Assembly: GCA_014379585.1 (NCBI GenBank)
Contig: JACMLN010000177.1
Coordinates: forward strand, 1-55,367
DNA: 55,367 nucleotides
From: Gloeobacterales cyanobacterium ES-bin-313
Lineage (GTDB): Bacteria; Cyanobacteriota; Cyanobacteriia; Gloeobacterales; Gloeobacteraceae
Direction of reading: 5' to 3'
A model generated the notes under the pieces. That model did no database searches and was not told the DNA's origin. It saw nothing but the letters and a program-made list of their open reading frames with translations. The position numbers were made by a program, and so were the translations under genes. This document shows positions 8,711 to 12,042 of this stretch, one piece after another. Every line of letters begins with the position of its first letter. Position 1 is the stretch's first letter.

Positions 8711-9670
8711 ATGGCGACCACTGCAACTGTCCACTTTGAGCGCAAACCTGTATTCACGCTGGAAATGCCCTTTGGCCAGCAGATGCAGATTATCAATCAC
8801 CGCTTCGAACCGCGTTGGCGCTCGGCGGTAGCTGAAGTGACGATTCTTAGTGGCTTGCATGGAGACGAACTGGACGGGGGATTAGTCTGTCACATGCTTT
8901 CTCAGTTTTTACAACGCCTCGGAAACAACTGGAAGTTAAATGGGATTGTCAATATCTTACCAAACGTAAATCCCCTCAGTGGAAATCTTGGTCAGCGCTT
9001 TGTGCCGATGATGGGCAGCGATTTAAACCGCAATTTTCCTGGCAACCACATCGGCTTTGAAAGTGAACGCCTTGCTGCTGCGATCTTTGGAGTGACCAGT
9101 CAGTCTTTGTTGTGCATCGACATCCACAGCAGCAACAACTTCTTGGAAGAATTGCCCCAAACGCGGATTGTCAATGAACCAGCAGTGGTGGATTGGGCTG
9201 CAACCCTCGATCTCGATTTGATCTGGACCCATTCAGCCCATAACTGGATCTCAGGTACGATTGCCCAATCCCTCTACGAACGGAACATCAACGCATTGGT
9301 GATCGAAGTCGGAACCGGTAGCCGCCTGAACCGCCTTTATTGCGAGCGGGTTTTTCGCGGAATTCTGCAATGTCTAAGAAGTTTAGGGGTGTTGACCAAC
9401 GGCACACCCGTTTCACCGTCTAACGCTTTACGCGCCAACGAGAGCAATGTGACCTATCTCAACGCGGAATCCGGGGGTTTATTTGTGCCAGCTTCCGGTT
9501 TAAAGTTAGGCGACCATCTCCGGCGCGGAGCACGGCTGGGTCAAATCATCGATCCGCTCTTCGGTCAGGAAACAGATGTGCTGGTGGCCAGTTCGGGTGT
9601 GCTGTTTACTTTGCGGGTCAATCCGGTGGTCTACGCTGGATCCCTGGTCGCTCGCATCCTACAAACTTAA
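8711..9670 (+). CDS. Succinylglutamate desuccinylase/aspartoacylase-family zinc hydrolase
   Basis: A 319-aa member of the M14-type AstE/AspA hydrolases, which remove acyl groups from acylated amino acids. The zinc ligands are present: LHGDE (about residue 55) and CIDIHSSNN. The substrate-binding DLNRNFPG matches the DLNR motif of aspartoacylase, and the catalytic glutamate is in ALVIEVGTG. The C-terminal 80 residues are a beta-rich domain (SGGLFVPASG...GARLGQIIDPL). The natural substrate is not predictable. It is the first of two tandem paralogues, the next starting one base after its stop. Confidence 0.83.
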   Translation: MATTATVHFERKPVFTLEMPFGQQMQIINHRFEPRWRSAVAEVTILSGLHGDELDGGLVCHMLSQFLQRLGNNWKLNGIVNILPNVNPLSGNLGQRFVPMMGSDLNRNFPGNHIGFESERLAAAIFGVTSQSLLCIDIHSSNNFLEELPQTRIVNEPAVVDWAATLDLDLIWTHSAHNWISGTIAQSLYERNINALVIEVGTGSRLNRLYCERVFRGILQCLRSLGVLTNGTPVSPSNALRANESNVTYLNAESGGLFVPASGLKLGDHLRRGARLGQIIDPLFGQETDVLVASSGVLFTLRVNPVVYAGSLVARILQT

Positions 9671-9671
9671 G

Positions 9672-10634
9672 ATGCAGAAAGCCCTTGGCCCGATTCAAGT
9701 GCCCTTTGGCCAACCTCTCCACCTGCCTTACCAGGAATTTGGACGGGGTAAACCCTTGCTGAGTATCGTCAGTGGCTTGCATGGGGACGAGTACAACGGT
9801 GTTTATATTTGCGGCTTGTTGATCGAATGGTTGCGGCGCATGGAACTGCGCAGTGCTTACAGTCTGCGGGGTCGGATTCGGATTTTGCCCGCCCTCAATC
9901 CCCTCGGTTTGCTCACCTCTGAACGCCATTGGCCGTTTGATCGCACCGACGTAGATCGCGTCTTTCCTGGGTATAGCCAAGGAGAAACTACCCAGCGCCT
10001 CGCCAGTTGGGTCTTTGAATTGCTGCGTCCCTCCCAGTGCTGCGTCGATCTCCACAGTGGAAATGCCACTTTTGAAGAACTGCCCCAAGTTCTTGTGTTT
10101 AACAGCCAACCCCGCGCCCTCGACCTCGCCAAGGCTATGGGCTTACCGTTTGTCTGGATTCGCCGCCTCAATGTCTACGGCGAAATGTCCCCCCAAGGTT
10201 TGGAAGTAGCGGGCAATGTACAAGGTTCCCTAGCCTTCAACCTCGCCCAAGTCGGCATAGAAGCCCTCGTTGTGCGCGCTGGTGGCGGCCTACGCCTCGA
10301 TATTCACTACTGCAACCAGGTGTTGACAGCCTTGATTCGCCTTGCCCTGAGCATGGGCGTCATCAGTGGACCACCCCTCGAAAAGACAGAAGCACCTCAG
10401 ATAGCGCCTGCCCAAGACTTTCAGAGTTTGCACGCCCGTTTTCCTGGTTTCTTTGTGCCCGAGATTGCTCTGGGTGCTACTGCCCGTCTTGGTGAACCCC
10501 TCGGCCAAGTGATCGATCCCCTCAGTGGTCAGTTGCGCGAAGAAATTACAGCCCCTGTTGCTGGAGTCATCGTCGCCCTGCGCACCCATCCAGTCGTTCT
10601 TGAAGGCAGTCTCGTGGCACGACTTTTGGCCTAA
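9672..10634 (+). CDS. Second aspartoacylase-family paralogue, catalytic residues altered
   Basis: A 320-aa paralogue of the preceding protein with the same architecture. LHGDEYNG and CVDLHSGN keep the zinc ligands, but the position of the catalytic glutamate (IEVGTG in the neighbour, IEVG in human aspartoacylase) reads VRAGGG, and the substrate-binding DLNR reads DVDR. It may therefore be a non-catalytic partner or have changed activity. The start is the ATG at 9672, one base after the upstream stop, so the pair is translationally coupled. A longer open frame upstream (from 9576) is an overlap with the first gene and is not used. The C-terminal domain ([11 protein letters not shown]...[10 protein letters not shown]) is also conserved. 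Confidence 0.82.
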
Positions 10635-10689
10635 CTTTGAAAACCCGTTGAAACTTGCTACGATAAGGCGCTATTCGCATGATGGGGCC

Positions 10690-12042
<1,353 letters not shown>

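Follow-up and report, generated by a model that had tools for sequence, protein, structure and literature searches.

A tandem pair of AstE/AspA-family genes in Gloeobacterales, the second lacking the catalytic glutamate, and its counterparts in other bacterial phyla

The two genes of the window and their active-site positions

This study focused on two adjacent genes of the window, the whole 55,367-nucleotide stretch of DNA that was analysed (contig JACMLN010000177.1 of Gloeobacterales cyanobacterium ES-bin-313). Gene A (8711-9670, forward strand, 319 amino acids) and gene B (9672-10634, same strand, 320 amino acids) were both intact open reading frames. A single base, 9671, separates the stop codon of A from the ATG of B, as the first-pass annotation of this DNA had reported. 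An earlier ATG for gene B is listed at 9576; the homology of Gloeobacterales B proteins starts at the ATG at 9672. The two proteins were 34% identical (BLASTP), and both matched the Pfam domain AstE_AspA_cat (PF24827, cut-off 25), gene A with 63.1 bits (E 3.4e-17) and gene B with 65.4 bits (E 6.4e-18). They stayed below the cut-offs of two equivalog models, TIGR02994 for DoeB/EutE (34.9 bits for A and 49.2 for B, cut-off 402.7) and NF002601 for aspartoacylase PRK02259 (16.4 and 10.4 bits, cut-off 180). Upstream of the pair, on the opposite strand, lies a RecQ-like helicase ORF of 460-461 amino acids, and directly downstream is a biotin carboxylase gene (10525-12042), a placement also seen in L036/L044.

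The AlphaFold2 single-chain models had pLDDT values of 91.9 (gene A) and 92.9 (gene B). The model of gene A matched EutE (6twm_C) with a Z score of 32.9 and an rmsd of 2.6 over 301 residues, and 3CDX with a Z score of 32.5, while that of gene B matched 3cdx_E with a Z score of 33.7 and an rmsd of 2.2 over 291 residues, and 6TWM with a Z score of 33.4. For both, the top structural matches were 3CDX and EutE/DoeB, and CphZ, a cyanophycin dipeptide hydrolase (8EIN; E251A variant 8EIP) of the same fold family, followed at Z ~30. Given this confident model and the strong structural matches, gene B is predicted to specify a properly formed member of the family fold rather than a fragment.

Both genes keep the zinc ligands. 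In gene A these are H50 and E53 of the motif HGDE (8858-8869) and H139 (9125-9127), and in gene B H37 and E40 (9780-9791) and H128 (10053-10055). The catalytic glutamate of gene A, E199 in the motif IEVGTG (9305-9307), is replaced in gene B by R202 in VRAGGG (10275-10277), and the DLNR motif of gene A (residues 104-107), of which N106-R107 (9026-9031) presumably serve in substrate binding, reads DVDR in gene B (D93-R96, 9948-9959). The retained zinc ligands, the contrast of IEVGTG with VRAGGG, and the change of DLNR to DVDR are as first annotated. A shifted alignment, with another glutamate filling the site in gene B, was ruled out, as BLASTP, MAFFT, and profile-profile hhalign (probability 100) all placed the glutamate and the arginine in the same column. 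The glutamate of gene A aligned with that of the solved relatives 3CDX, EutE/DoeB, 3NA6, and 2QJ8, and the E178 motif of human aspartoacylase, to which the first-pass annotation equated it, may be its counterpart; aspartoacylase itself was aligned to gene A by HMMER over the N-terminal part of aspartoacylase only. According to PDB entry titles, a glutamate-to-alanine change has been made in two members of the family, CphZ (E251A) and aminoacylase 3 (E177A). E251 of CphZ is 119 residues short of residue 370, and E199 of gene A 120 short of residue 319, a spacing that, by residue counts alone, fits the equivalence of the two.

Occurrence of the pair in Gloeobacterales and other bacteria

The genome of the window (G000, 4.26 Mb in 198 contigs) contained exactly two members of the family, A and B. 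In a search of 59 genomes, its own included, the tandem pair was found in all six members of the window's own family (G000-G005). Two further genomes of the order (G006 and G007) carried both genes at separate places, and in another (G008) only A was seen, on a contig of 3.9 kb. Every active-site residue was kept in all nine Gloeobacterales A proteins. The catalytic glutamate was absent from all eight B proteins, replaced by R, Q, A, or C, and among these eight E40 was missing in four and one or other histidine in two; start codons of the Gloeobacterales relatives in this B alignment were set by hand. Loss of the catalytic glutamate in B would, most simply, be older than the order. In a sample of 386 cyanobacteria the pair was present in G000 only, with no other Gloeobacterales among the matches, and this sample speaks to absence elsewhere within it, not to frequency within Gloeobacterales.

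Outside this order, a first contig scan with a single protein (P0002) as query gave no match, and a scan with an alignment of eight B proteins gave 168 relatives, of which the best 80 were taken (L043-L122). These came from Bacillota (Heliobacteria, Lachnospiraceae, and others), Campylobacterota, relatives of Geobacter, Myxococcota, Pseudomonadota, Aquificota, and Cyanobacteriota. Adjacent A and B genes were found in 78 of these best 80 of 168 loci, the exceptions being L045, which has B without A, and L075, which has A without B. A set of 83 pairs was assembled from 77 of the best 80 loci, the window, and the Gloeobacterales regions L033-L037; two contigs occur in it twice (L035 is L043, and L036 is L044). 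Eight loci were excluded because their number of family ORFs differed from two, namely L038-L042 and L045 (Gloeobacterales, where the two genes are separate or no B was found), L084 (A split across two ORFs, with B behind), and L075 (A only). Within the 83 pairs, 77 of them from the best 80 of 168 loci, the first gene had the full His-Glu-His-Glu set in 83, and the second had the glutamate in none. Zinc ligands were complete in 15 of these second genes, that of the window included, and incomplete in the other 68. With the earliest start codons assumed, A and B overlapped by four bases in 47 of the same 83 pairs. In Lachnospiraceae, B has tyrosine at the position of the catalytic glutamate, and the B proteins examined from this family and from Campylobacterota lack the site, within the same lineage and beside the same kind of gene cluster.

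Because that scan had been seeded with B, the surveys were repeated with a profile of gene A alone (A5), at a threshold (E 1e-60) chosen to catch A rather than the general family. A was found in 58 of 1,276 genome searches (3/297, 29/295, 19/249, 3/299, and 4/136 in the five taxon samples); the total adds up samples that may share a few genomes, and the 58 matches are all distinct, five of them being seed genomes from the B-seeded scan. The catalytic glutamate was kept in 58 of 58 A proteins. B stood directly behind A in 57 of the 58 genomes, and none of those 57 B proteins had the glutamate. The lone exception was an Aquificota metagenome-assembled genome with A and without B, so B is not strictly required. 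In the Aquificota locus L075 (250-2258) the lone A lies directly behind a gene of the GCS2-type glutamate-cysteine ligase family, that is, beside a different amide ligase, and no B is present there.

With both seeds the pair was found in other phyla, and a purely local curiosity of Gloeobacterales is ruled out. A general laxity of the family at the glutamate is likewise ruled out: all 27 cyanobacterial relatives outside the pair, each the sole match of its genome at the threshold used in the 386-genome sample, kept the four residues (HEHE), against 83 of 83 second genes (77 from the best 80 of 168 loci) without the glutamate. The idea of an active and an inactive copy side by side, put forward for the window alone, is thus strongly supported by sequence comparison well outside it, and the substitution is conserved in relatives.

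Gene neighbourhood, lineages, and selection

The upstream neighbours of the pair outside Gloeobacterales comprise an ATP-grasp of the circularly permuted kind (PF14403), Alpha-E (PF04168), and a protein resembling transglutaminases (PF01841/PF08379); ten proteins from four loci were identified with Pfam and the remaining ones with BLAST. Counted on the same strand and within 4 kb upstream, Alpha-E was present in 68, ATP-grasp in 65, and transglutaminase in 43 of the 77 loci outside Gloeobacterales among the best 80 of 168. Transglutaminase was mostly missing at that place in Sulfuricurvum loci. Two of these (L056 and L066) have a second set just upstream, and the transglutaminase counted there belongs to that second set, 2.1 kb upstream; in L056 (412-3786) it comprises a fused ATP-grasp and Alpha-E gene and a transglutaminase. 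In the Geobacter-type loci L078, L098, and L100 there is an extra gene directly behind B, which Pfam assigns in L078 (6945-7646) to the class-I glutamine amidotransferases.

Alpha-E was absent from nine of these 77 loci (from the best 80 of 168). In three (L107, L114, and L118) the sequence upstream is shorter than 500 bases, in L085 MatE lies upstream, and L075 is the lone A beside the GCS2 ligase. The remaining four (L057, L059, L093, and L115) have, in those scanned, PurL-like, SpoIVB, Spo0A, or FapA neighbours. In this group B adjoins a protein of about 1250-1270 amino acids, PurL-like by Pfam in L059, and DLNR is replaced by DMNA or DLNT in two representative A rows. Two genomes of this group (G062 and G063) had no PF14403 match, and the presence of the pair therefore does not require the ATP-grasp. 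In the A-seeded set, with genes counted anywhere in flanks of about 1.5 kb and on either strand, Alpha-E was found in 46 of 58 loci, transglutaminase alone in two, and neither in ten. The link between the pair and the ligase operon is strong, then, but not absolute.

In Gloeobacterales, Alpha-E was present in nine of nine genomes and the ATP-grasp in eight of nine, neither of them near the pair. The neighbours of the pair in the window included no cluster for Alpha-E, permuted ATP-grasp, or transglutaminase; in this genome Alpha-E lies on contig C14 and the ATP-grasp on contig C54. Three Alpha-E regions of the order (L131, L132, and L133, from G000, G007, and G004) were searched by tblastn, with no ATP-grasp or transglutaminase found beside Alpha-E, and from these three regions the operon looks dispersed. 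The pair is tied to Alpha-E and ATP-grasp in this order by co-occurrence alone, and Alpha-E was found in 47 of the 59 cyanobacterial genomes, most of these without the pair.

The relationship between A and B was explored with a tree of 68 rows, from which the four catalytic columns were removed; it was made by a quick method with SH-aLRT support only. A formed one clade (SH-aLRT 99). The free search split B into two groups, but holding B together improved the tree by 4.3 log units (AU p 0.611); a single B clade is therefore allowed and slightly preferred. The outgroup had the glutamate in seven of seven rows; the root rests on long outgroup branches, and odd composition was warned of for nine rows. 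The B rows cover six named phyla, and B of Aquificota is known from the A-seeded sample of 136. Judged by the tree and the surveys, A and B form two ancient lineages that mirror each other across seven phyla. Distances within A and within B were correlated (r 0.78 over 26 loci, with 0 of 2000 permutations as high), which indicates joint inheritance and not contact, since linkage alone gives the same result.

Both genes are under purifying selection. Over 15 chosen pairs dN/dS ranged from 0.015 to 0.165 for A and from 0 to 0.354 for B, with dS near saturation in several of them (proportion of synonymous differences up to 0.70), and the values for B were highest in Gloeobacter (0.16-0.35) among the pairs tested. 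B also carries a conserved motif of its own, around WPxDxTD..FPG...GETTQR. In the window this signature spans the 25 residues R85-R109 (9924-9998, forward strand), where the W, D, T, and ETTQ positions are unlike A. Among 30 representative B rows, W87 and D90 were invariant, including the 17 rows that miss at least one zinc ligand, while T92 was kept in 97% and E105 in 93%. The last of these, as the conserved glutamate of B itself, was considered as a filler of the vacant site. It is retained, however, in 15 of the 17 rows without the full zinc-ligand set, which means that it is not kept as a base for the metal site, and this candidate was rejected.

Function of the pair

On balance, the distribution and the residue pattern favour a reading in which A is a working zinc amidohydrolase or isopeptidase of the AstE/AspA family and B its dedicated pseudoenzyme partner, the two acting as one unit. 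An active gene with an inactive twin is found again in distant bacterial groups, there mostly behind putative peptide-building or peptide-modifying genes, and the inactive partner is therefore probably functional and conserved rather than debris. A putative A-B heteromer is probably the most economical arrangement; production of the two proteins in equal amounts, as the first-pass annotation expected, is an assumption. B would bind A and might stabilise it, shape its substrate channel, or dock the substrate, perhaps through the conserved region found only in B. A would remove or trim an amide or isopeptide bond made by the ATP-grasp ligase, its substrate probably being the ligase product. The first description of the pair as aspartoacylase-like, to be assayed on N-acyl amino acids, is too specific, given that the nearest solved relatives include DoeB/EutE and CphZ and that the neighbouring genes in other phyla suggest as substrate an amide or isopeptide formed by an ATP-grasp ligase. 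Several results count against the one-unit reading: the ten surveyed loci of 58 without a ligase-operon gene in the flanks, the 15 second genes of 83 (77 from the best 80 of 168 loci) with intact zinc ligands, the Aquificota genome with A and no B, the group of pairs in other surroundings (L057, L059, L093, and L115), the tie to Alpha-E and ATP-grasp by co-occurrence alone in Gloeobacterales, the higher dN/dS of B in Gloeobacter, and the split of B in the free tree search.

The main alternative is that B is a pseudoenzyme serving the ATP-grasp, Alpha-E, or transglutaminase proteins, for example as a carrier of substrate or product, and that A works alone. This we regard as unlikely, although B shares its cluster with those genes in most of the 77 loci (from the best 80 of 168), and a genome with A and no B (G066) likewise had no PF14403 match. 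Against it, A and B are adjacent in all six members of the window's family while ATP-grasp and Alpha-E lie elsewhere, and four pairs among the best 80 of 168 loci keep the adjacency without ligase-operon neighbours.

That B is instead an enzyme with another chemistry, using a different residue as base or binding a ligand at the zinc site where the ligands are kept, appears distinctly improbable. The complete zinc ligands of the 15 second genes just mentioned and the conservation of E105 would suit such a role, but E105 persists where zinc ligands are missing, and the B proteins of Campylobacterota and Lachnospiraceae examined do without the site in an unchanged lineage and cluster type. Decay of B as a duplicate on its way to being lost is very improbable and was rejected on the B-only motif and dN/dS: zinc ligands are lost in a scattered manner and dN/dS is somewhat higher in Gloeobacter, but the B frames are open in seven phyla, dN/dS was below 0.36 in 15 of 15 pairs, and B follows A in 57 of the 58 surveyed genomes.

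Returning to the reading of A and B as an enzyme and its inactive partner, the closest parallel in gene order is the Anbu operon, in which ATP-grasp, Alpha-E, and transglutaminase are followed by Anbu. In many loci A-B comes after these three genes in an identical arrangement, so that A and B occupy the place where Anbu is described to stand. In the accessible text of two papers (PMC6376114 and PMC5666114) that operon is proposed to be a peptide-synthesis or tagging system. A bolder and rather doubtful extension is that A and B form an obligate heteromeric hydrolase in the slot of Anbu, an eraser or trimmer of the modification written by ATP-grasp, Alpha-E, and transglutaminase, with B a pure substrate-recognition subunit whose metal site has been wholly lost in several phyla. 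A shared operon need not mean a shared complex, as Anbu showed no specific contact with its operon partners in the co-expression pull-downs described in the accessible part of PMC6376114.

What ATP-grasp/Alpha-E/transglutaminase operons make, and for what purpose, was given as unconfirmed in the accessible parts of the 2017 literature, and the substrate of A/B should reveal the bond made by the ligase, which would offer a direct handle on both. In Gloeobacterales the two genes are unlinked to the ligase genes, which allows them to be studied by themselves. If the preferred reading is true, the pair would exemplify, across bacterial phyla, a metallohydrolase that is retained together with its inactive twin. 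No recognisable description of it was found in the full-text literature covered, which includes few subscription journals, and an earlier notice is possible, the likeliest place being the amidoligase survey of Iyer et al. 2009.

Among known systems, EutE/DoeB (N-acetyl-diaminobutyrate deacetylase; 6TWL and 6TWM) and 3CDX have the catalytic residues of A, but both A and B fall far under the DoeB equivalog cut-off, and we know of no tandem inactive copy of EutE/DoeB. The M14-like enzymes of CphZ type are, in the available text of PMC10206079, isoaspartyl dipeptidases acting on beta-Asp-Arg/Lys, and thus cut an isopeptide made by a ligase. Their genes are described there beside cyanophycin genes and not beside Alpha-E, and that text does not mention an inactive twin. 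Inactive metallopeptidase homologues beside active kin are represented by the alpha and beta subunits of mitochondrial processing peptidase and by the M14 pseudopeptidases, which belong to lineages other than that of A and B. Roles of such homologues are reviewed in PMC11266112, in the accessible text of which the terms 'aspartoacylase' and 'succinylglutamate' do not occur. According to the same text, E270 is replaced by tyrosine in AEBP1, CPXM2, and CPD-III and by lysine in Ecm14, and the former replacement resembles the tyrosine found in B of Lachnospiraceae.
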